64,000 nucleotides of DNA from Struthio camelus (taxonomy: Eukaryota > Chordata > Aves > Struthioniformes > Struthionidae): assembly GCF_040807025.1 (NCBI RefSeq), contig NC_090982.1:89405463-89469462 (forward strand), in the 5' to 3' direction. Position numbers and translations under genes: made by a program. Every line of letters begins with the position of its first letter. Within the stretch, counting starts at the first letter, position 1. The notes under the pieces are model-generated. The model had not been told where the DNA came from and made no database searches. It worked only from the letters and a program-made list of their open reading frames with translations. Shown in pieces: positions 41,311-64,000 of this stretch.

Positions 41311-42136
41311 CCTCGGTGTGGGGGGCCGGAGCCCGGGGGGGGCAGGACCCCGGGGGGGGGGCGGAGACGGGGTGGAGGAGACAGGACCCCGGCGGGGGGG
41401 GCCGAAGCCGGGGGGGCAGGACCCCGCGGGGGGGGCGGAGACGGGGGGGGCAGGCAGGACCCCGGTGGGGGGGCCGGAGCCGGGGGGGCGGGGGGGGCCG
41501 GAGACCGGGGGGGGCAGGACCCCGCGGGGGGGGCCGGAGCCGGGGGGGGCCGCCAGGAGCCGCGCTGCCGGGGCCCCGGGGCGGGGGGGGGCCGGTCGGG
41601 CGGCAGGGGGCGGCGGGCGGGGGGCTGCCGCGCTCGAGCCCCCGCGGCCGCTCTTCCCCGGGCGGCCGGGCGCAGGAGGCCGCGACCCCCGCCCTGCCCG
41701 GCGTCCGTGCCAGCCCGAGGCGCCCCCTCCCCTCCGCCTCGCTCATCGCGCTCTCTGCCGTTATGTTCAACCATCTTGCACCCAGGCCCCTCCGCAGGCC
41801 GCCGAGGCAGCGCAGACCGCGGCCGGGCCCGCCCGACGCCCGGCGGAGGCGGCCGCAGCAGGTGTGTTTGCATGGGGGGGCGCCGTCTGCATGCCCTGGG
41901 GGCCAGCCCGCCCCCCGCCCCGCCCGGCCCGGCCCGGCCCCCCAGCCCGGCGGCCGGGCCCCGCCGAGCCCCCGCCGCCGCCCCTCGGCCTCCCCCCGCC
42001 GCCGCGCAGGGCCCGGGCGGCCGCGGCCCCTTCCCGCGGAGCGCGGCGGGGGGGGGGGGGGGCGGAGGGCGCCGGGCCCCGGCGGGGGCGGCGGTGCGGG
42101 CGCAGGGGGTGCCGGCTCTCAGCCGCGGCCCTCACG
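41311..42136. promoter_or_regulatory. Strong CpG island, probable promoter
   Basis: More than 800 bases of very high GC with dense CpG and many GC-box-like GGGCGG/CCGCCC words (for example CCCCGCCCCGCCC near 41,915), plus a 15-base G run at 42,048-42,062. A YY1-like CCATCTTG lies at 41,772-41,779. The less G-skewed core (about 41,700-41,870) includes candidate minus-strand start codons, listed separately. On the plus strand a CAG/GTGTGT donor-like site has its GT at 41,862-41,863. The island probably drives transcription in one or both directions, but orientation and target gene are not resolved. Confidence 0.6.
41744..41774 (-). other. Candidate minus-strand translation starts inside the CpG island
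   Basis: Two minus-strand ATGs lie 28 bases apart in different frames. The first, at 41,774-41,772, sits in GCAAGATGGTTG. This matches the SAASATGG core of the TISU (YY1-linked short-5'UTR) element but not its CGGC end, and reads MVEHNGRERDERGGG. The second, at 41,746-41,744, reads MSEAEGRGRLGLAR with a purine at -3. Either could begin a short first coding exon of a gene running leftward. No donor site or downstream exon was found that would confirm this, and both frames dissolve into the C-rich array. Confidence 0.2.
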
Positions 42137-42534
42137 GCGGCCGGGGTGCGGGAGCGTGGGCTCCGGGGCAGCTGGGGTGCCCGAGCATGGGCTCCAGGGG
42201 TGGCCAGGGTGTCGGAGCATGGGCTCCAGGGCAGCTGGGGTGCCCAAGCGTGGGCTCCGGGGGTGGCCAGGGTGTCCGAGCATGGGCTCAGGGGCGGCGG
42301 GGGTGTCCGAGCGTGGGCTCCAGGGCAGCTGGGGTGCCCAAGCGTGGGCTCCGGGGCAGCCGGGGTGTCCAAGCGTGGGCTACACGGACAGCCGGGTTGC
42401 TCAAGCGTCACCTCCGGGATGGCCACGGAGCCATACCCTGAGCATTGGCTCCTAGGGCGACCAGAGAGCCTAACCGTGGCCTCCTGGAGCAGCCATGCTG
42501 TACAAGCATGGGCTTCTGGGGTGGTCGCAGCGAT
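42137..42534 (+). repeat. Diverged minisatellite with units of about 32 bp
   Basis: About a dozen units of 31-36 bp alternate two types: one with GCAGCTGGGGTGCCCAAGCG and one with GTGGCCAGGGTGTCCGAGCA, each followed by TGGGCTCC and a GGG run. Divergence increases rightward (42,380-42,534), and the last unit carries GCGATGCGCCATGCTGGGG, which resembles the GCGATGGGCCGTGCTGGGG of the adjoining 65-bp array. Three plus-strand frames remain open across it (up to 457 codons when joined to the CpG island); these are composition effects. Confidence 0.85.
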
Positions 42535-43782
42535 GCGCCATGCTGGGGCCGGCGTGCCTGAGCCCGAGCCCGGGAGCGGGCTCCTGGGTCCCCGGCGATG
42601 GGCCGTGCTGGGGCCGGCGTGCCTGAGCCCGAGCCCGAGAGCGGGCTCCTGGGTCCCCGGCGATGGGCCGTGCTGGGGCCGGCGTGCCTGAGCCCGAGCC
42701 CGGGAGCGGGCTCCTGGGTCCCCGGCGATGGGCCGTGCTGGGGCCGGCGTGCCTGAGCCCGAGCCCGAGAGCGGGCTCCTGGGTCCCCGGTGATGGGCCG
42801 TGCTGGGGCCGGCGTGCCTGAGCCCGAGCCCGAGAGCGGGCTACTGGGTCCCTAGTGATGGGCCGTGCTGGGGCCAGCGTGCCTGAGCCCGAGCCCGAGA
42901 GCGGGCTCCTGGGTCCCCGGTGATGGGCCGTGCTGGGGCCGGCGTGCCTGAGCCTGAGCCCGAGAGCGGGCTGCTGGGTCCCTAGTGATGGGCCGTGCTG
43001 GGGCCGGCGTGCCTGAGCCCGAGCCCGGGAGCGGGCTCCTGGGTCCCCAGTGATGGGCCGTGCTGGGGCCAGCGTGCCTGAGCCCGAGCCCGAGAGCGGG
43101 CTCCTGGGTCCCTAGTGATGGGCCGTGCTGGGGCCGGCGTGCCTGAGCCCGAGCCCGAGAGCGGGCTCCTGGGTCCCCGGCGATGGGCCGTGCTGGGGCC
43201 GGCGTGCCTGAGCCCGAGCCCGAGAGCAGGCTCCTGGGTCCCCGGTGATGGGCCGTGCTGGGGCCGGTGTGCCTGAGCCCGAGCCCGAGAGCGGGCTCCT
43301 GGGTCCCCAGTGATGGGCCGTGCTGGGGCCGGCGTGCCTGAGCCCGAGCCCGAGAGCGGGCTCCTGGGTCGCTAGTGATGGGCCGTGCTGGGGCCGGCGT
43401 GCCTGAGCCCGAGCCCGAGAGCGGGCTCCTGGGTCCCTAGTGATGGGCCGTGCTGGGGCCGGCGTGCCTGAGCCCGAGCCCGAGAGCGGGCTCCTGGGTC
43501 CCCGGCGATGGGCCGTGCTGGGGCCGGCGTGCCTGAGCCCGAGCCCGAGAGCGGGCTCCTGGGTCCCCAGTGATGGGCCGTGCTGGGGCCGGCGTGCCTG
43601 AGCCCGAGCCCGAGAGCGGGCTCCTGGGTCCCCGGCGATGGGCCGTGCTGGGGCCGGCGTGCCTGAGCCCGAACCCGGGAGCGGGCTCCTGGGTCCCCAG
43701 TGATGGGCCGTGCTGGGGCCGGCGTGCCTGAGCCCGAGCCCGGGAGCGGGCTCCTGGGTCCCCGGCGATGGGCCGTGCTGGG

Positions 43783-46630
43783 GCCAGCGTGCCTGAGCCC
43801 GAGCCCGAGAGCGGGCTCCTGGGTCCCCGGCGATGGGCCGTGCTGGGGCCGGCGTGCCTGAGCCCGAGCCCGAGAGCGGGCTCCTGGGTCCCCGGCGATG
43901 GGCCGTGCTGGGGCCGGCGTGCCTGAGCCCGAGCCCGAGAGCGGGCTACTGGGTCCCTAGTGATGGGCCGTGCTGGGGCCGGCGTGCCTGAGCCCGAGCC
44001 CGAGAGCGGGCTCCTGGGTCCCCAGTGATGGGCCGTGCTGGGGCCGGCGTGCCTGAGCCCGAGAGCGGGCTGCTGGGTCCCTAGTGATGGGCCGTGCTGG
44101 GGCCGGCGTGCCTGAGCCCGAGCCCGAGAGCGGGCTCCTGGGTCCCCAGTGATGGGCCGTGCTGGGGCCAGCGTGCCTGAGCCCGAGCCCGAGAGCGGGC
44201 TCCTGGGTCCCTAGTGATGGGCCGTGCTGGGGCCGGCGTGCCTGAGCCCGAGAGCGGGCTGCTGGGTCCCTAGTGATGGGCCGTGCTGGGGCCGGCGTGC
44301 CTGAGCCCGAGCCCGAGAGCGGGCTCCTGGGTCCCCGGCGATGGGCCGTGCTGGGGCCGGCGTGCCTGAGCCCGAGCCCGGGAGCGGGCTCCTGGGTCCC
44401 CGGTGATGGGCCGTGCTGGGGCCGGCGTGCCTGAGCCCGAGCCCGAGAGCGGGCTCCTGGGTCCCCGGTGATGGGCCGTGCTGGGGCCGGCGTGCCTGAG
44501 CCCGAGCCCGAGAGCGGGCTCCTGGGTCCCTAGTGATGGGCCGTGCTGGGGCCGGCGTGCCTGAGCCCGAGCCCGAGAGCGGGCTCCTGGGTCCCCGGCG
44601 ATGGGCCGTGCTGGGGCCGGCGTGCCTGAGCCCGAGCCCGAGAGCGGGCTCCTGGGTCCCCGGTGATGGGCCGTGCTGGGGCCGGCGTGCCTGAGCCCGA
44701 GCCCGAGAGCGGGCTCCTGGGTCCCTAGTGATGGGCCGTGCTGGGGCCGGCGTGCCTGAGCCCGAGCCCGAGAGCGGGCTCCTGGGTCCCCGGCGATGGG
44801 CCGTGCTGGGGCCGGCGTGCCTGAGCCCGAGCCCGAGAGCGGGCTCCTGGGTCCCCAGTGATGGGCCGTGCTGGGGCCGGCGTGCCTGAGCCCGAGCCCG
44901 GGAGCGGGCTCCTGGGTCCCTAGTGATGGGCCGTGCTGGGGCCGGCGTGCCTGAGCCCGAGCCCGAGAGCGGGCTCCTGGGTCCCTAGTGATGGGCCGTG
45001 CTGGGGCCGGCGTGCCTGAGCCCGAGCCCGAGAGCGGGCTCCTGGGTCCCCAGTGATGGGCCGTGCTGGGGCCGGCGTGCCTGAGCCCGAGCCCAAGAGC
45101 GGGCTCCTGGGTCCCCAGTGATGGGCCGTGCTGGGGCCGGCGTGCCTGAGCCCGAACCCGGGAGCGGGCTCCTGGGTCCCCAGTGATGGGCCGTGCTGGG
45201 GCCGGCGTGCCTGAGCCCGAGCCCGGGAGCGGGCTCCTGGGTCCCTAGTGATGGGCTGTGCTGGGGCCGGCGTGCCTGAGCCCGAGCCCGAGAGCGGGCT
45301 CCTGGGTCCCCAGCGATGGGCCGTGCTGGGGCCGGCGTGCCTGAGCCCGAGCCCGAGAGTGGGCTCCTGGGTCCCCGGCGATGGGCCGTGCTGGGGCCAG
45401 CGTGCCTGAGCCCGAGCCCGAGAGCGGGCTCCTGGGTCCCCGGCGATGGGCCGTGCTGGGGCCGGCGTGCCTGAGCCCGAGCCCGAGAGCGGGCTCCTGG
45501 GTCCCCGGCGATGGGCCGTGCTGGGGCCGGCGTGCCTGAGCCCGAGCCCGAGAGCGGGCTCCTGGGTCGCTAGTGATGGGCCGTGCTGGGGCCGGCGTGC
45601 CTGAGCCCGAGCCCGAGAGCGGGCTCCTGGGTCCCTAGTGATGGGCCGTGCTGGGGCCGGCGTGCCTGAGCCCGAGCCCGAGAGCGGGCTCCTGGGTCCC
45701 CGGCAATGGGCCGTGCTGGGGCCGGCGTGCCTGAGCCCGAGCCCGGGAGCGGGCTCCTGGGTCCCCGGTGATGGGCCGTGCTGCGGCCAGCGTGCCTGAG
45801 CCCGAGCCCGAGAGCGGGCTCCTGGGTCCCCGGCGATGGGCCGTGCTGGGGCCGGCGTGCCTGAGCCCGAGCCCGAGAGCGGGCTCCTGGGTCCCCGGCG
45901 ATGGGCCGTGCTGGGGCCGGCGTGCCTGAGCCCGAGCCCGGGAGCGGGCTCCTGGGTCCCCGGCGATGGGCTGTGCTGGGGCCGGCGTGCCTGAGCCCGA
46001 GCCCGAGAGCGGGCTCCTGGGTCGCTAGTGATGGGCCGTGCTGGGGCCGGCGTGCCTGAGCCCGAGCCCGGGAGCGGGCTCCTGGGTCCCCGGTGATGGG
46101 CCGTGCTGGGGCCGGCGTGCCTGAGCCCGAGCCCGAGAGCGGGCTCCTGGGTCCCCGGCGATGGGCCGTGCTGGGGCCGGCGTGCCTGAGCCCGAGCCCG
46201 GGAGCGGGCTCCTGGGTCCCCGGTGATGGGCCGTGCTGGGGCCGGCGTGCCTGAGCCCGAGCCCGAGAGCGGGCTCCTGGGTCCCCGGTGATGGGCCGTG
46301 CTGGGGCCGGCGTGCCTGAGCCCGAGCCCGAGAGCGGGCTCCTGGGTCCCCGGCGATGGGCCGTGCTGGGGCCGGCGTGCCTGAGCCCGAGCCCGAGAGC
46401 GGGCTCCTGGGTCCCCGGCGATGGGCCGTGCTGGGGCCGGCGTGCCTGAGCCCGAGCCCGGGAGCGGGCTCCTGGGTCCCCGGCGATGGGCCGTGCTGGG
46501 GCCGGCGTGCCTGAGCCCGAGCCCGAGAGCGGGCTCCTGGGTCCCCGGCGATGGGCCGTGCTGGGGCCGGCGTGCCTGAGCCCGAGCCCGAGAGCGGGCT
46601 CCTGGGTCCCCGGCGATGGGCCGTGCTGGG
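43783..46630 (+). repeat. Higher-order block A (about 2.8 kb, about 44 monomers)
   Basis: This block shares a long ordered series of rare variants with block B (46,631 onward). They are GCCAGCG, the GGGCTACTGGG unit, a 59-bp GGGCTGCTGGG unit, GCCCAAGAGC, GCCCGAACCCGGG, GGGCTGTGCTGG, CCCAGCGATGG, GAGAGTGGGC, GTCGCTAGTG, CCCGGCAATGG and GTGCTGCGGCC. The offset is 2,848 at the start, 2,789 after an extra 59-bp unit present only in A (near 44,240), and 2,795 after an extra hexamer in B. The order and spacing show a tandem duplication of the whole block. Confidence 0.85.
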
Positions 46631-49380
46631 GCCAGCGTGCCTGAGCCCGAGCCCGAGAGCGGGCTCCTGGGTCCCCGGCGATGGGCCGTGCTGGGGCCGG
46701 CGTGCCTGAGCCCGAGCCCGAGAGCGGGCTCCTGGGTCCCCGGCGATGGGCCGTGCTGGGGCCGGCGTGCCTGAGCCCGAGCCCGAGAGCGGGCTACTGG
46801 GTCCCTAGTGATGGGCCGTGCTGGGGCCGGCGTGCCTGAGCCCGAGCCCGAGAGCGGGCTCCTGGGTCCCCAGTGATGGGCCGTGCTGGGGCCGGCGTGC
46901 CTGAGCCCGAGAGCGGGCTGCTGGGTCCCTAGTGATGGGCCGTGCTGGGGCCGGCGTGCCTGAGCCCGAGCCCGAGAGCGGGCTCCTGGGTCCCCAGTGA
47001 TGGGCCGTGCTGGGGCCAGCGTGCCTGAGCCCGAGCCCGAGAGCGGGCTCCTGGGTCGCTAGTGATGGGCCGTGCTGGGGCCGGCGTGCCTGAGCCCGAG
47101 CCCGAGAGCGGGCTCCTGGGTCCCCGGCGATGGGCCGTGCTGGGGCCGGCGTGCCTGAGCCCGAGCCCGGGAGCGGGCTCCTGGGTCCCCGGTGATGGGC
47201 CGTGCTGGGGCCGGCGTGCCTGAGCCCGAGCCCGAGAGCGGGCTCCTGGGTCCCCGGTGATGGGCCGTGCTGGGGCCGGCGTGCCTGAGCCCGAGCCCGA
47301 GAGCGGGCTCCTGGGTCCCTAGTGATGGGCCGTGCTGGGGCCGGCGTGCCTGAGCCCGAGCCCGAGAGCGGGCTCCTGGGTCCCCGGCGATGGGCCGTGC
47401 TGGGGCCGGCGTGCCTGAGCCCGAGCCCGAGAGCGGGCTCCTGGGTCCCCGGTGATGGGCCGTGCTGGGGCCGGCGTGCCTGAGCCCGAGCCCGAGAGCG
47501 GGCTCCTGGGTCCCTAGTGATGGGCCGTGCTGGGGCCGGCGTGCCTGAGCCCGAGCCCGAGAGCGGGCTCCTGGGTCCCCGGCGATGGGCCGTGCTGGGG
47601 CCGGCGTGCCTGAGCCCGAGCCCGAGAGCGGGCTCCTGGGTCCCCAGTGATGGGCCGTGCTGGGGCCGGCGTGCCTGAGCCCGAGCCCGGGAGCGGGCTC
47701 CTGGGTCCCTAGTGATGGGCCGTGCTGGGGCCGGCGTGCCTGAGCCCGAGCCCGAGAGCGGGCTCCTGGGTCCCTAGTGATGGGCCGTGCTGGGGCCGGC
47801 GTGCCTGAGCCCGAGCCCGAGAGCGGGCTCCTGGGTCCCCAGTGATGGGCCGTGCTGGGGCCGGCGTGCCTGAGCCCGAGCCCAAGAGCGGGCTCCTGGG
47901 TCCCCAGTGATGGGCCGTGCTGGGGCCGGCGTGCCTGAGCCCGAACCCGGGAGCGGGCTCCTGGGTCCCCAGTGATGGGCCGTGCTGGGGCCGGCGTGCC
48001 TGAGCCCGAGCCCGGGAGCGGGCTCCTGGGTCCCTAGTGATGGGCTGTGCTGGGGCCGGCGTGCCTGAGCCCGAGCCCGAGAGCGGGCTCCTGGGTCCCC
48101 AGCGATGGGCCGTGCTGGGGCCGGCGTGCCTGAGCCCGAGCCCGAGAGTGGGCTCCTGGGTCCCCGGCGATGGGCCGTGCTGGGGCCAGCGTGCCTGAGC
48201 CCGAGCCCGAGAGCGGGCTCCTGGGTCCCCGGCGATGGGCCGTGCTGGGGCCGGCGTGCCTGAGCCCGAGCCCGAGAGCGGGCTCCTGGGTCCCCGGCGA
48301 TGGGCCGTGCTGGGGCCGGCGTGCCTGAGCCCGAGCCCGAGAGCGGGCTCCTGGGTCGCTAGTGATGGGCCGTGCTGGGGCCGGCGTGCCTGAGCCCGAG
48401 CCCGAGCCCGAGAGCGGGCTCCTGGGTCCCTAGTGATGGGCCGTGCTGGGGCCGGCGTGCCTGAGCCCGAGCCCGAGAGCGGGCTCCTGGGTCCCCGGCA
48501 ATGGGCCGTGCTGGGGCCGGCGTGCCTGAGCCCGAGCCCGGGAGCGGGCTCCTGGGTCCCCGGTGATGGGCCGTGCTGCGGCCAGCGTGCCTGAGCCCGA
48601 GCCCGAGAGCGGGCTCCTGGGTCCCCGGCGATGGGCCGTGCTGGGGCCGGCGTGCCTGAGCCCGAGCCCGAGAGCGGGCTCCTGGGTCCCCGGCGATGGG
48701 CCGTGCTGGGGCCGGCGTGCCTGAGCCCGAGCCCGGGAGCGGGCTCCTGGGTCCCCGGCGATGGGCTGTGCTGGGGCCGGCGTGCCTGAGCCCGAGCCCG
48801 AGAGCGGGCTCCTGGGTCGCTAGTGATGGGCCGTGCTGGGGCCGGCGTGCCTGAGCCCGAGCCCGGGAGCGGGCTCCTGGGTCCCCGGTGATGGGCCGTG
48901 CTGGGGCCGGCGTGCCTGAGCCCGAGCCCGAGAGCGGGCTCCTGGGTCCCCGGCGATGGGCCGTGCTGGGGCCGGCGTGCCTGAGCCCGAGCCCGGGAGC
49001 GGGCTCCTGGGTCCCCGGTGATGGGCCGTGCTGGGGCCGGCGTGCCTGAGCCCGAGCCCGAGAGCGGGCTCCTGGGTCCCCGGTGATGGGCCGTGCTGGG
49101 GCCGGCGTGCCTGAGCCCGAGCCCGAGAGCGGGCTCCTGGGTCCCCGGCGATGGGCCGTGCTGGGGCCGGCGTGCCTGAGCCCGAGCCCGAGAGCGGGCT
49201 CCTGGGTCCCCGGCGATGGGCCGTGCTGGGGCCGGCGTGCCTGAGCCCGAGCCCGGGAGCGGGCTCCTGGGTCCCCGGCGATGGGCCGTGCTGGGGCCGG
49301 CGTGCCTGAGCCCGAGCCCGAGAGCGGGCTCCTGGGTCCCCGGCGATGGGCCGTGCTGGGGCCGGCGTGCCTGAGCCCGA
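46631..49380 (+). repeat. Higher-order block B (duplicate of block A)
   Basis: Carries the same marker order as block A, with GCCCAAGAGC at 47,880 (45,091 in A) and GTGCTGCGGCC at about 48,573 (45,778 in A). It lacks one of A's 59-bp units, has a 71-bp unit near 48,403, and has GTCGCTAG where A has GTCCCTAG near 47,056. Similarity can be followed to about 49,380, where B has a three-hexamer unit absent from A. Confidence 0.85.
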
Positions 49381-52069
49381 GCCCGAGCCCGAGAGCGGGC
49401 TCCTGGGTCCCCGGTGATGGGCCGTGCTGGGGCCGGCGTGCCTGAGCCCGAGCCCGAGAGCGGGCTCCTGGGTCCCCGGTGATGGGCCGTGCTGGGGCCG
49501 GCGTGCCTGAGCCCGAGCCCGAGAGCGGGCTCCTGGGTCCCCGGTGATGGGCCGTGCTGGGGCCGGCGTGCCTGAGCCCGAGCCCGGGAGCGGGCTCCTG
49601 GGTCCCCGGTGATGGGCCGTGCTGGGGCCGGCGTGCCTGAGCCCGAGCCCGAGAGCGGGCTCCTGGGTCGCTAGTGATGGGCCGTGCTGAGGCCGGCGTG
49701 CCTGAGCCCGAGCCCGGGAGCGGGCTCCTGGGTCCCCGGCGATGGGCCGTGCTGGGGCCGGCGTGCCTGAGCCCGAGCCCGAGAGCGGGCTCCTGGGTCC
49801 CCGGCGATGGGCCGTGCTGGGGCCGGCGTGCCTGAGCCCGAGCCCGGGAGCGGGCTCCTGGGTCCCCGGTGATGGGCCGTGCTGGGGCCGGCGTGCCTGA
49901 GCCCGAGCCCGAGAGCGGGCTCCTGGGTCGCTAGTGATGGGCCGTGCTGGGGCCGGCGTGCCTGAGCCCGAGCCCGAGAGCGGGCTCCTGGGTCCCCGGT
50001 GATGGGCCGTGCTGGGGCCAGCGTGCCTGAGCCCGAGAGTGGGCTCCTGGGTCCCCGGCGATGGGCCGTGCTGGGGCCGGCGTGCCTGAGCCTGAGCCCG
50101 AGAGCGGGCTCCTGGGTCCCCGGCGATGGGCCGTGCTGGGGCCGGCGTGCCTGAGCCCAAGCCCAGGAGCGGGCTCCTGGGTCCCCGGCGATGGGCCGTG
50201 CTGGGGCCGGCGTGCCTGAGCCCAAGCCCAGGAGCGGGCTCCTGGGTCCCCGGCGATGGGCCGTGCTGGGGCCGGCGTGCCTGAGCCCGAGCCCGAGAGC
50301 GGGCTCCTGGGTCCCCGGCGATGGGCCGTGCTGGGGCCGGCGTGCCTGAGCCCGAGCCCGAGAGCAGGCTCCTGGGTCCCCGGCGATGGGCCGTGCTGGG
50401 GCCGGCGTGCCTGAGCCCGAGCCCGAGAGCGGGCTCCTGGGTCGCTAGTGATGGGCCGTGCTGGGGCCGGCGTGCCTGAGCCCGAGCCCGGGAGCGGGCT
50501 CCTGGGTCCCTAGTGATGGGCCGTGCTGGGGCCGGCGTGCCTGAGCCCGAGCCCGAGAGCGGGCTCCTGGGTCCCCGGCGATGGGCCGTGCTGGGGCCGG
50601 CGTGCCTGAGCCCGAGCCCGAGAGCGGGCTCCTGGGTCCCCGGCAATGGGCCGTGCTGGGGCCGGCGTGCCTGAGCCCGAGCCCGGGAGCGGGCTCCTGG
50701 GTCCCCGGTGATGGGCCGTGCTGCGGCCAGCGTGCCTGAGCCCGAGCCCGAGAGCGGGCTCCTGGGTCCCCGGCGATGGGCCGTGCTGGGGCCGGCGTGC
50801 CTGAGCCCGAGCCCGAGAGCGGGCTCCTGGGTCCCCGGCGATGGGCCGTGCTGGGGCCGGCGTGCCTGAGCCCGAGCCCGAGAGTGGGCTCCTGGGTCCC
50901 CAGTGATGGGCCGTGCTGGGGCCGGCGTGCCTGAGCCCGAGCCCGGGAGCGGGCTCCTGGGTCCCTAGTGATGGGCCGTGCTGGGGCCGGCGTGCCTGAG
51001 CCCGAGCCCGAGAGCGGGCTCCTGGGTCCCTAGTGATGGGCCGTGCTGGGGCCGGCGTGCCTGAGCCCGAGCCCGAGAGCGGGCTCCTGGGTCCCCGGCG
51101 ATGGGCCGTGCTGGGGCCGGCGTGCCTGAGCCCGAGCCCGAGAGCGGGCTCCTGGGTCCCCGGTGATGGGCCGTGCTGGGGCCGGCGTGCCTGAGCCCGA
51201 GCCCGAGAGCGGGCTCCTGGGTCCCCGGTGATGGGCTGTGCTGGGGCCGGCGTGCCTGAGCCCGAGCCCGGGAGCGGGCTCCTGGGTCCCCGGCGATGGG
51301 CCGTGCTGGGGCCGGCGTGCCTGAGCCCGAGCCCGGGAGCGGGCTCCTGGGTCCCCGGCGATGGGCCGTGCTGGGGCCGGCGTGCCCGAGCCCGAGCCCG
51401 AGAGCGGGCTCCTGGGTCCCCAGTGATGGGCCGTGCTGGGGCCGGCGTGCCTGAGCCCGAGCCCGAGAGCGGGCTCCTGGGTCCCCGGTGATGGGCCGTG
51501 CTGGGGCCGGCGTGCCCGAGCCCGAGCCCGAGAGCGGGCTCCTGGGTCCCCGGTGATGGGCCGTGCTGGGGCCGGCGTGCCTGAGCCCGAGCCCGAGAGC
51601 GGGCTCCTGGGTCCCCGGTGATGGGCTGTGCTGGGGCCGGCGTGCCTGAGCCCGAGCCCGGGAGCGGGCTCCTGGGTCCCCGGCGATGGGCCGTGCTGGG
51701 GCCGGCGTGCCTGAGCCCGAGCCCGAGAGCGGGCTCCTGGGTCCCCGGCGATGGGCCGTGCTGGGGCCGGCGTGCCTGAGCCCGAGCCCGGGAGCGGGCT
51801 CCTGGGTCCCCGGTGATGGGCCGTGCTGGGGCCGGCGTGCCTGAGCCCGAGCCCGAGAGCGGGCTCCTGGGTCCCCGGCGATGGGCCGTGCTGGGGCCGG
51901 CGTGCCTGAGCCCGAGCCCGGGAGCGGGCTCCTGGGTCCCCGGCGATGGGCCGTGCTGGGGCCGGCGTGCCTGAGCCCGAGCCCGAGAGCGGGCTCCTGG
52001 GTCCCTAGTGATGGGCCGTGCTGGGGCCGGCGTGCCTGAGCCCGAGCCCGAGAGCGGGCTCCTGGGTCC

Positions 52070-53883
52070 CTAGTGATGGGCCGTGCTGGGGCCGGCGTGC
52101 CTGAGCCCGAGAGTGGGCTCCTGGGTCCCCGGCGATGGGCCGTGCTGGGGCCGGCGTGCCTGAGCCTGAGCCCGAGAGCAGGCTCCTGGGTCCCCGGCGA
52201 TGGGCCGTGCTGGGGCCGGCGTGCCTGAGCCCAAGCCCAGGAGCGGGCTCCTGGGTCCCCGGCGATGGGCCGTGCTGGGGCCGGCGTGCCTGAGCCCGAG
52301 CCCAGGAGCGGGCTCCTGGGTCCCCGGCGATGGGCCGTGCTGGGGCCGGCGTGCCTGAGCCCGAGCCCGAGAGCGGGCTCCTGGGTCCCCGGCGATGGGC
52401 CGTGCTGGGGCCGGCGTGCCTGAGCCCGAGCCCGAGAGCGGGCTCCTGGGTCCCCGGCGATGGGCCGTGCTGGGGCCGGCGTGCCTGAGCCCGAGCCCGG
52501 GAGCGGGCTCCTGGGTCCCCGGTGATGGGCTGTGCTGGGGCCGGCGTGCCTGAGCCCGAGCCCGAGAGCGGGCTCCTGGGTCCCCGGCGATGGGCCGTGC
52601 TGGGGCCAGCGTGCCTGAGCCCAAGCCCGAGAGCGGGCTCTTGGGGTCCTAGTGATGGGCCGTGCTGGGGCCGGCGTGCCTGAGCCCGAGCCCGAGAGCG
52701 GGCTCCTGGGTCCCCGGCGATGGGCAGTGCTGGGGCCGGCGTGCCTGAGCCCGAGCCCGAGAGCGGGCTCCTGGGTCCCCGGCGATGGGCCGTGCTGGGG
52801 CCGGCGTGCCTGAGCCCGAGCCCGAGAGCGGGCTCCTGGGTCCCCGGTGATGGGCCGTGCTGGGGCCGGCGTGCCTGAGCCCGAGCCCGGGAGCGGGCTC
52901 CTGGGTCCCCGGCGATGGGCCGTGCTGGGGCCGGCGTGCCTGAGCCCGAGCCCGAGAGCGGGCTCCTGGGTCCCCGGCGATGGGCCGTGCTGGGGCCGGC
53001 GTGCCTGAGCCCGAGCCCGAGAGTGGGCTCCTGGGTCCCCAGTGATGGGCCGTGCTGGGGCCGGCGTGCCTGAGCCCGAGCCCGGGAGCGGGCTCCTGGG
53101 TCGCTAGTGATGGGCCGTGCTGGGGCCGGCGTGCCTGAGCCCAAGCCCGGGAGCGGGCTCCTGGGTCCCCGGTGATGGGCCGTGCTGGGGCCGGCGTGCC
53201 TGAGCCCGAGCCCGGGAGCGGGCTCCTGGGTCCCCGGTGATGGGCCGTGCTGGGGCCGGCGTGCCTGAGCCCGAGCCCGAGAGCGGGCTCCTGGGTCCCT
53301 AGTGATGGGCCGTGCTGGGGCCGGCGTGCCTGAGCCCGAGCCCGAGAGCGGGCTCCTGGGTCCCCGGCGATGGGCCGTGCTGGGGCCGGCGTGCCTGAGC
53401 CCGAGCCCGAGAGCGGGCTCCTGGGTCCCCGGTGATGGGCCGTGCTGGGGCCGGCGTGCCTGAGCCCGAGCCCGAGAGCGGGCTCCTGGGTCCCCGGTGA
53501 TGGGCCGTGCTGGGGCCGGCGTGCCTGAGCCCGAGCCCGAGAGCGGGCTCCTGGGTCCCCGGTGATGGGCTGTGCTGGGGCCGGCGTGCCTGAGCCCGAG
53601 CCCGGGAGCGGGCTCCTGGGTCCCCGGCGATGGGCCGTGCTGGGGCCGGCGTGCCTGAGCCCGAGCCCGGGAGCGGGCTCCTGGGTCCCCGGCGATGGGC
53701 CGTGCTGGGGCCGGCGTGCCCGAGCCCGAGCCCGAGAGCGGGCTCCTGGGTCCCCAGTGATGGGCCGTGCTGGGGCCGGCGTGCCCGAGCCCGAGCCCGA
53801 GAGCGGGCTCCTGGGTCCCCGGTGATGGGCCGTGCTGGGGCCGGCGTGCCCGAGCCCGAGCCCGAGAGCGGGCTCCTGGGTCC
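52070..53883 (+). repeat. Higher-order block C1 (1,814 bp, 28 monomers)
   Basis: Directly followed by its near-identical copy C2. Rare markers recur at exactly 1,814 bp: GAGTGGGC in a 59-bp unit (52,111 and 53,925), TTGGGGTCCT (52,641 and 54,455), TGGGCAGTGC (52,721 and 54,535) and the GATGGGCTGTGCTGG unit (53,562 and 55,376). 1,814 equals 28 units of 65 minus one 6-bp hexamer. Confidence 0.92.
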
Positions 53884-55697
53884 CTAGTGATGGGCCGTGC
53901 TGGGGCCGGCGTGCCTGAGCCCGAGAGTGGGCTCCTGGGTCCCCGGCGATGGGCCGTGCTGGGGCCGGCGTGCCTGAGCCTGAGCCCGAGAGCAGGCTCC
54001 TGGGTCCCCGGCGATGGGCCGTGCTGGGGCCGGCGTGCCTGAGCCCAAGCCCAGGAGCGGGCTCCTGGGTCCCCGGCGATGGGCCGTGCTGGGGCCGGCG
54101 TGCCTGAGCCCGAGCCCAGGAGCGGGCTCCTGGGTCCCCGGCGATGGGCCGTGCTGGGGCCGGCGTGCCTGAGCCCGAGCCCGAGAGCGGGCTCCTGGGT
54201 CCCCGGCGATGGGCCGTGCTGGGGCCGGCGTGCCTGAGCCCGAGCCCGAGAGCGGGCTCCTGGGTCCCCGGCGATGGGCCGTGCTGGGGCCGGCGTGCCT
54301 GAGCCCGAGCCCGGGAGCGGGCTCCTGGGTCCCCGGTGATGGGCCGTGCTGGGGCCGGCGTGCCTGAGCCCGAGCCCGAGAGCGGGCTCCTGGGTCCCCG
54401 GCGATGGGCCGTGCTGGGGCCAGCGTGCCTGAGCCCAAGCCCGAGAGCGGGCTCTTGGGGTCCTAGTGATGGGCCGTGCTGGGGCCGGCGTGCCTGAGCC
54501 CGAGCCCGAGAGCGGGCTCCTGGGTCCCCGGCGATGGGCAGTGCTGGGGCCGGCGTGCCTGAGCCCGAGCCCGAGAGCGGGCTCCTGGGTCCCCGGCGAT
54601 GGGCCGTGCTGGGGCCGGCGTGCCTGAGCCCGAGCCCGAGAGCGGGCTCCTGGGTCCCCGGTGATGGGCCGTGCTGGGGCCGGCGTGCCTGAGCCCGAGC
54701 CCGGGAGCGGGCTCCTGGGTCCCCGGCGATGGGCCGTGCTGGGGCCGGCGTGCCTGAGCCCGAGCCCGAGAGCGGGCTCCTGGGTCCCCGGCGATGGGCC
54801 GTGCTGGGGCCGGCGTGCCTGAGCCCGAGCCCGAGAGTGGGCTCCTGGGTCCCCAGTGATGGGCCGTGCTGGGGCCGGCGTGCCTGAGCCCGAGCCCGGG
54901 AGCGGGCTCCTGGGTCGCTAGTGATGGGCCGTGCTGGGGCCGGCGTGCCTGAGCCCAAGCCCGGGAGCGGGCTCCTGGGTCCCCGGTGATGGGCCGTGCT
55001 GGGGCCGGCGTGCCTGAGCCCGAGCCCGGGAGCGGGCTCCTGGGTCCCCGGTGATGGGCCGTGCTGGGGCCGGCGTGCCTGAGCCCGAGCCCGAGAGCGG
55101 GCTCCTGGGTCCCTAGTGATGGGCCGTGCTGGGGCCGGCGTGCCTGAGCCCGAGCCCGAGAGCGGGCTCCTGGGTCCCCGGCGATGGGCCGTGCTGGGGC
55201 CGGCGTGCCTGAGCCCGAGCCCGAGAGCGGGCTCCTGGGTCCCCGGTGATGGGCCGTGCTGGGGCCGGCGTGCCTGAGCCCGAGCCCGAGAGCGGGCTCC
55301 TGGGTCCCCGGTGATGGGCCGTGCTGGGGCCGGCGTGCCTGAGCCCGAGCCCGAGAGCGGGCTCCTGGGTCCCCGGTGATGGGCTGTGCTGGGGCCGGCG
55401 TGCCTGAGCCCGAGCCCGGGAGCGGGCTCCTGGGTCCCCGGCGATGGGCCGTGCTGGGGCCGGCGTGCCTGAGCCCGAGCCCGGGAGCGGGCTCCTGGGT
55501 CCCCGGCGATGGGCCGTGCTGGGGCCGGCGTGCCCGAGCCCGAGCCCGAGAGCGGGCTCCTGGGTCCCCAGTGATGGGCCGTGCTGGGGCCGGCGTGCCC
55601 GAGCCCGAGCCCGAGAGCGGGCTCCTGGGTCCCCGGTGATGGGCCGTGCTGGGGCCGGCGTGCCCGAGCCCGAGCCCGAGAGCGGGCTCCTGGGTCC
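53884..55697 (+). repeat. Higher-order block C2 (duplicate of C1)
   Basis: Same 28-monomer order as C1 with very few differences (for example GGGCTGTGCTGG near 52,529 in C1 is GGGCCGTGCTGG near 54,343 here). The correspondence ends at about 55,697, where the CCTAGTG of C1 is CCGGTG. Such low divergence indicates a recent unequal exchange. Related but differently spaced markers occur again near 56,324 and earlier near 50,037. Confidence 0.92.
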
Positions 55698-58600
55698 CCG
55701 GTGATGGGCCGTGCTGGGGCCGGCGTGCCTGAGCCCGAGCCCGAGAGCGGGCTCCTGGGTCCCCGGTGATGGGCCGTGCTGGGGCCGGCGTGCCTGAGCC
55801 CGAGCCCGGGAGCGGGCTCCTGGGTCCCCGGCGATGGGCCGTGCTGGGGCCGGCGTGCCTGATCCCGAGCCCGAGAGCGGGCTCCTGGGTCCCCGGCGAT
55901 GGGCCGTGCTGGGGCCGGCGTGCCTGAGCCCGAGCCCGGGAGCGGGCTCCTGGGTCCCCGGTGATGGGCCGTGCTGGGGCCGGCGTGCCTGAGCCCGAGC
56001 CCGAGAGCGGGCTCCTGGGTCCCCGGTGATGGGCCGTGCTGGGGCCGGCGTGCCTGAGCCCGAGCCCGAGAGCGGGCTCCTGGGTCCCCGGTGATGGGCC
56101 ATGCTGGGGCCGGCGTGCCTGAGCCCGAGCCCGGGAGCGGGCTCCTGGGTCCCCGGTGATGGGCCGTGCTGGGGCCGGCGTGCCTGAGCCCGAGCCCGAG
56201 AGCGGGCTCCTGGGTCCCTAGTGATGGGCCGTGCTGGGGCCGGCGTGCCTGAGCCCGAGCCCGAGAGCGGGCTCCTGGGTCCCTAGTGATGGGCCGTGCT
56301 GGGGCCGGCGTGCCTGAGCCCGAGAGTGGGCTCCTGGGTCCCCGGCGATGGGCCGTGCTGGGGCCGGTGTGCCTGAGCCTGAGCCCGAGAGCAGGCTCCT
56401 GGGTCCCCGGCGATGGGCCGTGCTGGGGCCGGCGTGCCTGAGCCCAAGCCCAGGAGCGGGCTCCTGGGTCCCCGGCGATGGGCCGTGCTGGGGCCGGCGT
56501 GCCTGAGCCCGAGCCCAGGAGCGGGCTCCTGGGTCCCCGGCGATGGGCCGTGCTGGGGCCGGCGTGCCTGAGCCCGAGCCCGAGAGCGGGCTCCTGGGTC
56601 CCCGGCGATGGGCCGTGCTGGGGCCGGCGTGCCTGAGCCCGAGCCCGAGAGCGGGCTCCTGGGTCCCCGGCGATGGGCCGTGCTGGGGCCGGCGTGCCTG
56701 AGCCCGAGCCCGAGAGCGGGCTCCTGGGTCCCCAGTGATGGGCCGTGCTGGGGCCGGCGTGCCTGAGCCCGAGCTCGAGAGCGGGCTCCTGGGTCCCCGG
56801 TGATGGGCCGTGCTGGGGCCGGCGTGCCTGAGCCCGAGCCCGGGAGCGGGCTCCAGGGTCGCTAGTGATGGGCCGTGCTGGGGCCGGCGTGCCTGAGCCC
56901 AAGCCCGGGAGCGGGCTCCTGGGTCCCCGGTGATGGGCCGTGCTGGGGCCGGCGTGCCTGAGCCCGAGCCCGAGAGCGGGCTCCTGGGTCCCTAGTGATG
57001 GGCCGTGCTGGGGCCGGCGTGCCTGAGCCCGAGCCCGAGAGCGGGCTCCTGGGTCCCCGGCGATGGGCCGTGCTGGGGCCGGCGTGCCTGAGCCCGAGCC
57101 CGGGAGCGGGCTCCTGGGTCCCCAGTGATGGGCTGTGCTGGGGCCGGCGTGCCTGAGCCCGAGCCCGAGAGCGGGCTCCTGGGTCCCTAGTGATGGGCCG
57201 TGCTGGGGCCGGCGTGCCTGAGCCCGAACCCGGGAGCGGGCTCCTGGGTCCCCGGTGATGGGCCGTGCTGGGGCCGGCGTGCCTGAGCCCGAGCCCGAGA
57301 GCGGGCTCCTGGGTCCCCGGCGATGGGCCGTGCTGGGGCCGGCGTGCCTGAGCCCGAGCCCGAGAGCGGGCTCCTGGGTCCCCGGCGATGGGCCGTGCTG
57401 GGGCCGGCGTGCCTGAGCCCGAGCCCGAGAGCGGGCTCCTGGGTCCCCGGCGATGGGCCGTGCTGGGGCCGGCGTGCCTGAGCCCGAGCCCGAGAGCGGG
57501 CTCCTGGGTCCCCGGCGATGGGCCGTGCTGGGGCCGGCGTGCCTGAGCCCGAGCCCGAGAGCGGGCTCCTGGGTCCCCGGTGATGGGCCGTGCTGGGGCC
57601 GGCGTGCCTGAGCCCGAGCCCGAGAGCGGGCTCCTGGGTCCCCGGCGATGGGCCGTGCTGGGGCCGGCGTGCCTGAGCCCGAGCCCGGGAGCGGGCTCCT
57701 GGGTCCCCAGTGATGGGCCGTGCTGGGGCCGGCGTGCCTGAGCCCGAGCCCGAGAGCGGGCTCCTGGGTCCCCGGTGATGGGCCGTGCTGGGGCCGGCGT
57801 GCCTGAGCCCGAGCCCTAGAGTGGGCTCCTGGGTCCCTAGTGATGGGCCGTGCTGGGGCCGGCGTGCCTGAGCCCGAGCCCGAGAGCGGGCTCCTGGGTC
57901 CCCGGCGATGGGCCGTGCTGGGGCCGGCGTGCCTGAGCCCGAGCCCGAGAGCGGGCTCCTGGGTCCCCAGCGATGGGCCGTGCTGGGGCCGGCGTGCCTG
58001 AGCCCGAGCCCGAGAGCGGGCTCCTGGGTCCCCGGCGATGGGCCGTGCTGGGGCCAGCGTGCCTGAGCCCGAGAGCGGGCTCCTGGGTCCCCGGTGATGG
58101 GCTGTGCTGGGGCCGGCGTGCCTGAGCCCGAGCCCGGGAGCGGGCTCCTGGGTCCCCGGTGATGGGCCGTGCTGGGGCCGGCGTGCCTGAGCCCGAGCCC
58201 GAGAGCGGGCTCCTGGGTCCCTAGTGATGGGCCGTGCTGGGGCCGGCGTGCCTGAGCCCGAGCCCGGGAGCGGGCTCCTGGGTCCCCAGTGATGGGCTGT
58301 GCTGGGGCCGGCGTGCCTGAGCCCGAGCCCGAGAGCGGGCTCCTGGGTCCCCGGCGATGGGCCGTGCTGGGGCCGGCGTGCCTGAGCCCGAGCCCGGGAG
58401 CGGGCTCCTGGGTCCCCAGTGATGGGCTGTGCTGGGGCCGGCGTGCCTGAGCCCGAGCCCGAGAGCGGGCTCCTGGGTCCCTAGTGATGGGCCGTGCTGG
58501 GGCCGGCGTGCCTGAGCCCGAGCCCGAGAGCGGGCTCCTGGGTCCCCGGTGATGGGCCGTGCTGGGGCCGGCGTGCCTGAGCCCGAGCCCGAGAGCGGGC

Positions 58601-61600
58601 TCCTGGGTCCCTAGTGATGGGCCGTGCTGGGGCCGGCGTGCCTGAGCCCGAGCCCGGGAGCGGGCTCCTGGGTCCCCGGTGATGGGCTGTGCTGGGGCCG
58701 GCGTGCCTGAGCCTGAGCCCGGGAGCGGGCTCCTGGGTCCCCGGCGATGGGCTGTGCTGGGGCCGGCGTGCCTGAGCCCGAGCCCGAGAGCGGGCTCCTG
58801 GGTCCCCGGCGATGGGCCGTGCTGGGGCCGGCGTGCCTGAGCCCGAGCCCGAGAGCGGGCTCCTGGGTCCCTAGTGATGGGCCGTGCTGGGGCCGGCGTG
58901 CCTGAGCCCGAGCCCGGGAGCGGGCTCCTGGGTCCCCGGTGATGGGCCGTGCTGGGGCCGGCGTGCCTGAGCCCGAGCCCGAGAGCGGGCTCCTGGGTCC
59001 CCGGCGATGGGCCGTGCTGGGGCCGGCGTGCCTGAGCCCGAGCCCGAGAGCGGGCTCTTGGGGTCCCCGGTGATGGGCCGTGCTGGGGCCGGCGTGCCTG
59101 AGCCCGAGCCCGAGAGCGGGCTCCTGGGTCCCCGGCGATGGGCCGTGCTGGGGCCGGCGTGCCTGAGCCCGAGCCCGAGAGCGGGCTCCTGGGTCCCCGG
59201 CGATGGGCCGTGCTGGGGCCGGCGTGCCTGAGCCCGAGCCCGAGAGCGGGCTCTTGGGGTCCTAGTGATGGGCCGTGCTGGGGCCGGCGTGCCTGAGCCC
59301 GAACCCGGGAGCGGGCTCCTGGGTCCCCGGCGATGGGCCGTGCTGGGGCCGGCGTGCCTGAGCCCGAGCCCGGGAGCGGGCTCCTGGGTCCCCGGCGATG
59401 GGCCGTGCTGGGGCCGGCGTGCCTGAGCCCGAGCCCGGGAGCGGCCTCCTGGGTCCCCGGCGATGGGCCGTGCTGGGGCCGGCGTGCCTGAGCCCGAGCC
59501 CGGGAGCGGGCTCCTGGGTCCCCGGCGATGGGCCGTGCTGGGGCCGGCGTGCCTGAGCCCGAGCCCGAGAGCGGGCTCCTGGGTCCCTAGTGATGGGCCG
59601 TGCTGGGGCCGGCGTGCCTGAGCCCGAGCCCGAGAGCGGGCTCCTGGGTCCCCGGCGATGGGCCGTGCTGGGGCCGGCGTGCCTGAGCTCGCGCCCGGGA
59701 GCGGGCTCCTGGGTCCCCGGCGATGGGCCGTGCTGGGGCCGGCGTGCCTGAGCTCGCGCCCGGGAGCGGGCTCCTGGGTCCCCGGCGATGGGCCGTGCTG
59801 GGGCCGGTGTGCCTGAGCCCGAGCCCGGGAGCGGGCTCCTGGGTCCCCGGTGATGGGCCGTGCTGGGGCCGGTGTGCCTGAGCCCGAGCCCGGGAGCGGG
59901 CTCCTGGGTCCCCGGCGATGGGCCGTGCTGGGGCCGGCGTGCCTGAGCTCGCGCCCGGGAGCGGGCTCCTGGGTCCCCGGCGATGGGCCGTGCTGGGGCC
60001 GGCGTGCCTGAGCCTGAGCCCGAGAGCGGGCTCCTGGGGCCCCGGTGATGGGCCGTGCTGGGGCCGGCGTGCCTGAGCCCGAGCCCGAGAGCGGGCTCCT
60101 GGGTCCCCGGTGATGGGCCGTGCTGGGGCCGGCGTGCCTGAGCCCGAGCCCGAGAGCGGGCTCCTGGGTCCCCGGCGATGGGCCGTGCTGGGGCCGGCGT
60201 GCCTGAGCCCGAGCCCGAGAGCGGGCTCCTGGGTCCCCGGCGATGGGCCGTGCTGGGGCCGGCGTGCCTGAGCCCGAGCCCGAGAGCGGGCTCCTGGGTC
60301 CCCGGCGATGGGCCGTGCTGGGGCCGGCGTGCCTGAGCCCGAGCCCGAGAGCGGGCTACTGGGTCCCTAGTGATGGGCCGTGCTGGGGCCGGCGTGCCTG
60401 AGCCCGAGCCCGAGAGCGGGCTCCTGGGTCCCCGGTGATGGGCCGTGCTGGGGCCGGCGTGCCTGAGCCCGAGCCCGAGAGCGGGCTCCTGGGTCCCTAG
60501 TGATGGGCCGTGCTGGGGCCGGCGTGCCTGAGCCCGAGCCCGAGAGCGGGCTCCTGAGTCCCTAGTGATGGGCCGTGCTGGGGCCGGCGTGCCTGAGCCC
60601 GAGCCCGAGAGCGGGCTCCTGGGTCCCCAGTGATGGGCCGTGCTGGGGCCGGCGTGCCTGAGCCCCAACCCGGGAGCGGGCTCCTGGGTCCCCGGTGATG
60701 GGCCGTGCTGGGGCCGGCGTGCCTGAGCCCGAGCCCGAGAGCGGGCTCCTGGGTCCCCGGCGATGGGCCGTGCTGGGGCCGGCGTGCCTGAGCCCGAGCC
60801 CGAGAGCGGGCTCCTGGGTCCCCGGTGATGGGCCGTGCTGGGGCCGGCGTGCCTGAGCCCGAGCCCGAGAGCGGGCTCCTGGGTCCCCGGCGATGGGCCG
60901 TGCTGGGGCCGGCGTGCCTGAGCCCGAGCCCGAGAGCGGGCTCCTGGGTCCCCGGTGATGGGCCGTGCTGGGGCCGGCGTGCCTGAGCCCGAGCCCGAGA
61001 GTGGGCTCCTGGGTCCCCGGTGATGGGCCGTGCTGGGGCCGGCGTGCCTGAGCCCGAGCCCGAGAGCGGGCTGCTGGGTCCCCGGTGATGGGCCGTGCTG
61101 GGGCCGGCGTGCCTGAGCCCGAGCCCGGGAGCGGGCTCGTGGGTCCCTGGTGATGGGCCGTGCTGGGGCCGGCGTGCCTGAGCCCGAGCCCGAGAGCGGG
61201 CTCCTGGGTCCCCGGCGATGGGCCGTGCTGGGGCCGGCGTGCCTGAGCCCGAGCCCGAGAGCGGGCTCCTGGGTCCCTAGTGATGGGCCGTGCTGGGGCC
61301 GGCGTGCCTGAGCCCGAGCCCGAGAGCGGGCTCCTGGGTCCCCGGTGATGGGCCGTGCTGGGGCCGGCGTGCCTGAGCCCGAGCCCGGGAGCGGGCTCCT
61401 GGGTCCCTAGTGATGGGCCGTGCTGGGGCCGGCGTGCCTGAGCCCAAGCCCGAGAGCGGGCTGCTGGGTCCCCAGTGATGGGCCGTGCTGGGGCCGGCGT
61501 GCCTGAGCCCGAGCCCGAGAGCGGGCTCCTGGGTCCCTAGTGATGGGCCGTGCTGGGGCCGGCGTGCCTGAGCCCGAGCCCGAGAGTGGGCTCCTGGGTC

Positions 61601-63240
61601 CCCGGCGATGGGCCGTGCTGGGGCCGGCGTGCCTGAGCCCGAGCCCGAGAGCGGGCTCCTGGGTCCCCGGTGGTGGGCCGTGCTGGGGCCGGCGTGCCTG
61701 AGCCCGAGCCCGAGCCCGAGAGTGGGCTGCTGGGTCCCTAGTGATGGGCCGTGCTGGGGCCGGCGTGCCTGAGCCCGAGCCCGAGAGCGGGCTGCTGGGT
61801 CCCCGGTGATGGGCCGTGCTGGGGCCGGCGTGCCTGAGCCCGAGCCCGAGAGCGGGCTCCTGGGTCCCTAGTGATGGGCCGTGCTGGGGCCAGCGTGCCT
61901 GAGCCCGAGCCCGAGAGCGGGCTCCTGGGTCCCTAGTGATGGGCCGTGCTGGGGCCGGCGTGCCTGAGCCCGAGCCCGAGAGCGGGCTCCTGGGTCCCTA
62001 GTGATGGGCCGTGCTGGGGCCGGCGTGCCTGAGCCCGAGCCCGAGAGCGGGCTCCTGGGTCCCCGGTGATGGGCCGTGCTGGGGCCGGCGTGCCTGAGCC
62101 CGAGCCCGAGAGCGGGCTCCTGGGTCCCCGGCGATGGGCCGTGCTGGGGCTGGCGTGCCTGAGCCCGAGAGCGGGCTCCTGGGTCCCTAGTGATGGGCCG
62201 TGCTGGGGCCGGCGTGCCTGAGCCCGAGCCCGAGAGCGGGCTCCTGGGTCCCCGGCGATGGGCCGTGCTGGGGCCGGCGTGCCTGAGCCCGAGCCCGAGA
62301 GCGGGCTCCTGGGTCCCCGGTGATGGGCCGTGCTGGGGCCGGCGTGCCTGAGCCCGAGCCCGAGAGCGGGCTCCTGGGTCCCCGGTGATGGGCCGTGCTG
62401 GGGCCGGCGTGCCTGAGCCCGAGCCCGAGAGCGGGCTCCTGGGTCCCCGGCGATGGGCCGTGCTGGGGCCGGCGTGCCTGAGCCCGAGCCCGAGAGCGGG
62501 CTCCTGGGTCCCCGGCGATGGGCCGTGCTGGGGCCGGCATGCCTGAGCCCGAGCCCGAGAGTGGGCTCCTGGGTCCCCGGTGATGGGCCGTGCTGGGGCC
62601 GGCGTGCCTGAGCCCGAGCCCGAGAGCGGGCTCCTGGGTCCCTAGTGATGGGCCGTGCTGGGGCCGGCGTGCCTGAGCCCGAGCCCGAGAGCAGGCTCCT
62701 GGGTCCCCGGTGATGGGCCGTGCTGGGGCCAGCGTGCCTGAGCCCGAGCCCGAGAGTGGGCTCCTGGGTCCCCAGTGATGGGCCGTGCTGGGGCCGGCGT
62801 GCCTGAGCCCGAGCCCGAGAGCGGGCTCCTGGGTCCCCGGTGATGGGCCGTGCTGGGGCCGGCGTGCCTGAGCCCGAGCCCGAGAGCGGGCTCCTGGGTC
62901 CCCGGCGATGGGCCGTGCTGGGGCCGGCGTGCCTGAGCCCGAGCCCGAGAGCGGGCTCCTGGGTCCCTAGTGATGGGCCGTGCTGGGGCCGGCGTGCCTG
63001 AGCCCGAGCCCGAGAGCGGGCTCCTGGGTCCCCGGCGATGGGCCGTGCTGGGGCCGGCGTGCCTGAGCCCGAGCCCGAGAGCGGGCTCCTGGGTCCCTAG
63101 TGATGGGCCGTGCTGGGGCCGGCGTGCCTGAGCCCGAGCCCGAGAGCGGGCTCCTGGGTCCCCGGTGATGGGCCGTGCTGGGGCCGGCGTGCCTGAGCCC
63201 GAGCCCGAGAGCGGGCTCCTGGGTCCCCGGCGATGGGCCG

Positions 63241-63740
63241 TGCTGGGGCCGGCGTGCCTGAGCCCGAGAGCGGGCTCCTGGGTCCCTAGTGATGGGCCGT
63301 GCTGGGGCCGGCGTGCCTGAGCCCGAGCCCGAGAGCGGGCTCCTGGGTCCCCGGCGATGGGCCGTGCTGGGGCCGGCGTGCCTGAGCCCGAGCCCGAGAG
63401 CGGGCTCCTGGGTCCCTAGTGATGGGCCGTGCTGGGGCCGGCGTGCCTGAGCCCGAGCCCGAGAGCGGGCTCCTGGGTCCCCGGCGATGGGCCGTGCTGG
63501 GGCCGGCGTGCCTGAGCCCGAGAGCGGGCTCCTGGGTCCCTAGTGATGGGCCGTGCTGGGGCCGGCGTGCCTGAGCCCGAGCCCGAGAGCGGGCTCCTGG
63601 GTCCCCGGCGATGGGCCGTGCTGGGGCCGGCGTGCCTGAGCCCGAGCCCGAGAGCGGGCTCCTGGGTCCCTAGTGATGGGCCGTGCTGGGGCCGGCGTGC
63701 CTGAGCCCGAGCCCGAGAGCGGGCTCCTGGGTCCCCGGTG
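63241..63740 (+). repeat. 254-bp tetramer repeat within the satellite
   Basis: A four-monomer group (one 59-bp and three 65-bp units) is repeated in tandem, with the short unit at 63,261 and again at 63,515. It is part of a zone (about 62,900-63,700) where CCTAGTG and CCGGCG units alternate strictly, giving a 130-bp dimer period. Confidence 0.8.
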
Positions 63741-64000
63741 ATGGGCCGTGCTGGGGCCGGCGTGCCTGAGCCCGAGCCCGAGAGCGGGCTCCTGGGTCCC
63801 CGGTGATGGGCCGTGCTGGGGCCGGCGTGCCTGAGCCCGAGCCCGAGAGCGGGCTCCTGGGTCCCCGGTGATGGGCCGTGCTGGGGCCGGCGTGCCTGAG
63901 CCCGAGCCCGGGAGCGGGCTCCTGGGTCCCCGGCGATGGGCCGTGCTGGGGCCGGCGTGCCTGAGCCCGAGCCCGAGAGTGGGCTCCTGGGTCCCTGGTG

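Follow-up and report, generated by a model that had tools for sequence, protein, structure and literature searches.

A single-locus 65-bp minisatellite near the ends of the putative ostrich Z and W chromosomes

The window, by which we mean the whole 64,000-nucleotide stretch of Struthio camelus DNA analysed here (C41:89405463-89469462), contains a long GC-rich tandem array that reaches its right edge. Ten further 10-kb pieces on the right (L001-L010) were read as well, for a neighbourhood of 164 kb in total. The features at and beside the array are as follows.

39676..41550, plus strand: second G-rich minisatellite, 53-bp period, about 32 copies (TRF, alignments); its copies on the putative Z and W differ
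41550..42135, unstranded: CpG island left of the array, with GC 0.85 and 0.78 and CpG o/e 0.80 and 0.68 in two 500-base rows
42136..42531, plus strand: older, degenerate 31-bp minisatellite enclosing the 65-bp array (TRF-detectable part 42136-42408)
42532..64000, plus strand: window part of the GC-rich 65-bp minisatellite array, 331 copies (TRF)
about L001:6671-6710: sequence of the older 31-bp type just right of the array (edge match)

For the window part of the array, TRF reports a period of 65, 331.0 copies, 95% matches, and 0% indels (score 38322), in agreement with the original prediction of more than 21 kb and about 330 copies continuing at the window edge. The right end of the array is at L001:6675 (C41:89476137), which is 6,675 bases outside the window. 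As a whole, it measures 28,144 bp by TRF and comprises 433.9 copies (≈434) with 78% GC and a CpG o/e of 0.70; the 1-kb rows from 42001 on range from 0.77 to 0.80 GC. Intervals between unit anchors (n = 433) are 65 bp in 415 cases, 59 bp in 13, 71 bp in 3, and 66 bp in 2. The description of the array as head-to-tail and uninterrupted also holds, since all copies share one orientation, the 4-kb rows from 40000 on contain no N bases, and no inverted copies of a 19-base core are present in the array region at up to three errors. A minisatellite is defined in the available text of one source as a tandem repeat with a unit of 9-100 bp and variant repeats (PMC2599865), and the 65-bp unit of this array, with 108 types among 433 units on the putative Z, falls within that definition.

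Beyond the right end of the array lies a CpG island (≈L001:6680-8180, densest at ≈6980-7760), followed by DNA of mostly 36-46% GC (≈40%) with some GC-rich stretches. An open exon of 821 aa is located 18 kb further on, at L003:4901-7366. This exon is putatively that of ZNF532, and we assign the island as its promoter; the array lies upstream of the island so assigned. Two weaker relatives of the exon, on C12 and C30 (47% and 52% identity over parts), are presumably ZNF592 and ZNF687, and a solved-structure search with the zinc-finger exon returned only four C2H2 proteins, none giving a gene name. The other minisatellites of at least 1 kb in the 164 kb are the 53-bp repeat at 39676-41550, a CCACCCAGCAAACCC-type tandem repeat of period 31 at L007:6350-7712 (≈1.4 kb), and an 80-bp minisatellite at L010:4206-7491 (76% GC, 41 copies, 97%), ≈88 kb beyond the main array. 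Elsewhere in the window, a GCCTC-rich short tandem repeat with a CpG o/e of ≈1.0-1.1 (28059-28695) stands isolated in DNA of 39-53% GC, and an open frame at 17883-18590 presumably corresponds to part of a CR1-type retrotransposon reverse transcriptase, which it resembles.

The sequences that border the array on the left and on the right align with each other over 37 columns, with a score of 40 (the best of 500 base-shuffles reached 24), and the 65-bp array therefore sits inside the older 31-bp minisatellite. The 31-bp and 65-bp consensus units themselves bear only a modest resemblance, with a score that was reached by 3 of 1000 base-shuffles. A 65-bp segment would have been amplified inside the older repeat, beside the CpG-island promoter of the putative ZNF532 gene.

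Among the 633 units compared with the commonest 65-mer, 872 of the 1216 differences are CpG transitions, which occur at 16 of the 65 bases. Germline CpG methylation leaves a CpG-transition pattern of this kind. Because such variants dominate, the array probably carried germline methylation at its CpGs over much of its history. A special hairpin was rejected as the driver of the repeat: each consensus unit contains a 7-bp stem, and the folding of single strands shows no clear advantage over shuffled controls (z = -0.64, -0.57, and -1.25). Antisense open frames of up to 1943 aa occur on the minus strand of the array and encode the same peptide in all three phases; they stay open because no antisense stop occurs in the consensus unit, whose length of 65 is not divisible by 3. 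We regard this antisense frame as a trap for gene predictors rather than a gene and reject a coding role for the array. Nothing observed points to a coding, centromeric, or telomeric role.

The distribution of the repeat was followed with a 33-base core of the unit, searched on both strands of the 1.45-Gb assembly (262 contigs). Genome-wide, the exact core occurs 510 times in the forward orientation, with 339 matches in the C41 array and 171 in a second array on C40; at up to three mismatches the 662 forward matches divide into 434 and 228, and both totals (510 and 662) may be lower bounds. The reverse strand yielded no match genome-wide, either exact or at up to three mismatches, which rules out inverted copies as part of the repeat. 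Since the two arrays use up both genome totals, the repeat is confined to one locus at this sensitivity, and a dispersed satellite is ruled out because every core match lies within these two homologous arrays. The many loci or megabase heterochromatin of a chromosome-wide satellite are not found, with 434 + 228 matches accounting for 662 of 662. In this assembly the repeat is a single-locus minisatellite (VNTR). The earlier suggestion of a new satellite overstated the nature of the repeat, because 434 + 228 of the 662 matches lie at one locus on C41 and C40. CNM/PO41 repeats are 41-42 bp avian sequences found on many microchromosomes; the array resembles them in being a GC-rich bird tandem repeat but differs in its 65-bp period and in its restriction to a single macrochromosomal locus, which bears out the distinction drawn in the original prediction.

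A DM-domain search of the assembly gave five matches, three of which cluster at C41:9.28-9.38 Mb and two of which are on C8, with none on C40. Three clustered DM genes on a bird Z presumably represent the DMRT1 region. Because C41 has three clustered matches and C40 has none, we read C41 as the Z and C40 as the W of a large-PAR ratite, an assignment based on the DM-domain matches, chromosome lengths, and gene biology. With lengths of 70,392,303 bp for C40 and 89,930,962 bp for C41, a W of 70 Mb paired with a Z of 90 Mb is consistent with a ratite that has a large PAR; for the emu, the PAR is given as 59.3 Mb, or 73% of Z, in the available part of one study (PMC6735826). From the length of C41, the array ends ≈455 kb from the contig end, and its counterpart on C40 extends from about 69,987,062 to 70,001,830 (≈14.8 kb), ≈390 kb from the end of that contig. 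The last 5 kb of C40 contain 251 TTAGGG motifs with a TTTACTCTTTCCCTCTC-type repeat ahead of them, and C41 terminates inside a TTTACTCTTTCCCTCTC-type repeat of the same kind. This repeat, seen at the ends of L019 and L020, is a subtelomeric satellite, and the assembly of C41 breaks off within it.

The unique flanks of the two arrays are 98.6-99.8% identical. On the right, identity is 99.57% over 3,225 bp, with 5 mismatches and 4 gap openings, and on the left, beyond the 53-bp minisatellite, it is 99.83% over 1,209 bp. The left CpG island (41550-42135) has 8 mismatches and 6 gap columns in 586 aligned bases, including a stretch (41597-41896) with 1 mismatch in 300, and the next gene's coding exon, compared over 253 residues, is identical on C40 and C41 at 253 of 253 positions. 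The 31-bp strip at 42136-42390 has 9 mismatches in 162 aligned bases and 93 gap columns. In the strip just left of the array (42391-42531), we counted 9 Z-W mismatches in 139 aligned bases, as against 5 in 3225 on the right flank, a local divergence far above that of the other flanking sequence. Apart from the repeat strip, the sequence similarity is at the allele level on both assigned sex chromosomes, and by this measure the locus is pseudoautosomal. From their near-identical unique flanks, the C41 and C40 arrays therefore appear to be pseudoautosomal alleles of ≈28.1 and ≈14.8 kb. With 434 copies on C41 and 228 on C40 between matching unique flanks, they differ in length as a VNTR does, in a comparison of one Z/W pair from one assembly.

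Cutting at a common anchor gave 433 units on Z and 227 on W. These represent 108 types on Z and 62 on W, of which 42 are common to both (128 distinct types in the two alleles), and units of shared types make up 351 of 433 on Z and 199 of 227 on W. Within the Z array, units 63-104 duplicate units 19-61: 40 of the 42 unit pairs are identical, at a score of 108.4, where the best of 15 shuffles reached 10.9. Eight local Z-W blocks of units score above the best of 30 shuffles (11.8), and seven of the eight fit one order on both chromosomes. A global alignment in which one order was forced scores 47.7, compared with -43.9 to -36.0 in 12 shuffles, and aligns 123 units in 19 blocks, 85 of them identical. 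The aligned blocks span Z units 4-264 and W units 6-215, leaving 168 Z units and 11 W units at the right end unaligned. With 123 of 265 left-part Z units aligned, the left part is only partly collinear; some unit order is thus common to both alleles on the left, and none at the end facing the promoter. This pattern is a hint, and only that, of turnover polarised toward the promoter-side end. A short higher-order repeat was rejected, as type identity at lags 1-12 is near the shuffle level on both chromosomes (Z, 0.053-0.091, shuffle mean 0.069; W, 0.044-0.094, shuffle mean 0.066), in a test on a preliminary cutting into 446 (Z) and 230 (W) pieces that included some false cuts. In this test, only greater lags (44 and 28, for example) were conspicuous on Z.

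Overall, the array is very probably a minisatellite (VNTR) of a large-PAR bird, confined to one subtelomeric, pseudoautosomal locus and driven by recombination; its description follows from the anatomy and the allele comparison, whereas we infer the meiotic cause. Such an array would change by the duplication and loss of blocks of tens of units, and these length changes would arise from meiotic recombination or its repair, within a terminal PAR that probably sees many crossovers. Its setting favours recombination. Going by the available parts of the respective sources, recombination in the ostrich PAR peaks at the distal end (PMC10343094), recombination in birds is raised at transcription start sites and CpG islands, in genomes described as lacking PRDM9 (PMC10781513), and most human minisatellites lie at recombinationally active chromosome ends, with the active ends of some falling at recombination hotspots (PMC2599865). 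For paleognath PARs as a whole, rather than their tips, GC3 data point to lower rates than in similar autosomes in the accessible part of one study (PMC6735826). Most likely, the array is a by-product of local meiotic recombination and repair. A more specific proposal, which we consider rather doubtful, is that the array may record promoter-directed meiotic recombination in a bird PAR, with turnover polarised toward the end at the ZNF532 CpG-island promoter and without PRDM9. By analogy with human minisatellites, in which turnover is polarised toward flanking hotspots, the polarity here would be toward a promoter in a lineage without PRDM9.

A functional element, whether a dense block of CpGs acting to tune or insulate the promoter of ZNF532 or a repeat that is transcribed or intronic, could account for the position of the array between two CpG islands, with one end within ≈0.3 kb of the promoter island, and for its CpG o/e of 0.70. 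We consider this unlikely, however, given that one allele is about twice as long as the other and unit order differs between them, that the CpG-decay variants suggest methylation instead of a protected island, and that the unit without antisense stops explains the 1943-aa frame. It is less probable still that the array is one block of a chromosomal satellite family, from pericentromeric or Z/W heterochromatin. The array is indeed long (28 kb), uninterrupted, and in one direction, and the emu satellites DnoSat16 and DnoSat21 each show one W signal and one inferred Z signal in the available part of their description (PMC11036779), but no copies were found elsewhere in the genome at up to three mismatches in 33 bases, the array is far too small for a heterochromatin block, and it stands among CpG islands and a coding exon. 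Its place ≈455 kb from the contig end between these neighbours likewise speaks against a pericentromeric block and agrees with the alternative of a subtelomeric one, both raised in the original prediction; a macrosatellite does not suit a unit of only 65 bp, whereas an expanded VNTR next to the CpG island does fit. The least probable of these explanations, and a very improbable one, is that mis-joined reads lengthened a VNTR that is real but short. The near-identical Z blocks spaced 44 units apart could resemble false duplication, and the Z array length and this duplication could carry assembly error, as 28 kb may exceed single reads; set against this are the unique flanks on both sides, the many unit types private to Z, and the separate 228-unit array on C40. 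Since the array is present on two chromosomes in partly shared unit order, it is unlikely to be a product of misassembly.

In ratites, the large and recombining sex chromosomes pose an unsolved problem, and a terminal-PAR marker on both Z and W with 128 unit types would allow Z-W exchange to be tracked in families. The question of bird minisatellite growth at promoter hotspots can likewise be put to the test here. In the literature covered, which took in few subscription journals, no account of the locus turned up, nor any of ZNF532 with a bird tandem repeat. The array is of a known kind, a minisatellite, in a new place, the terminal PAR of Z and W beside a gene promoter. Hypervariable telomeric minisatellites of human PAR1 were reportedly described by Cooke et al. 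in 1985, and the array, by description, shares with these a tandem structure, a pseudoautosomal position near the telomere, and sex-chromosome alleles that differ in length; unlike them, it belongs to a ZW bird, has a 65-bp unit, and lies ≈390-455 kb from the contig ends. It also appears longer than the typical alleles of human MS32, CEB1, and D1S80, to which we liken it in structure. These loci, as presented in the available text, similarly have a unit of 9-100 bp, variant units, and a terminal location (PMC2599865), D1S80 being subtelomeric (PMC3356730). Among emu satellites, DnoSat16 and DnoSat21 are like the array in their single W and single inferred Z signals, and the repeat might already be one of the two; because 20 of the 24 emu families exceed 100 bp and three are under 40 bp in the part of that account available, at most one can have a 65-bp unit (PMC11036779). 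By analogy, the array is best read as a probable bird ZW counterpart of the human PAR and subtelomeric minisatellites.
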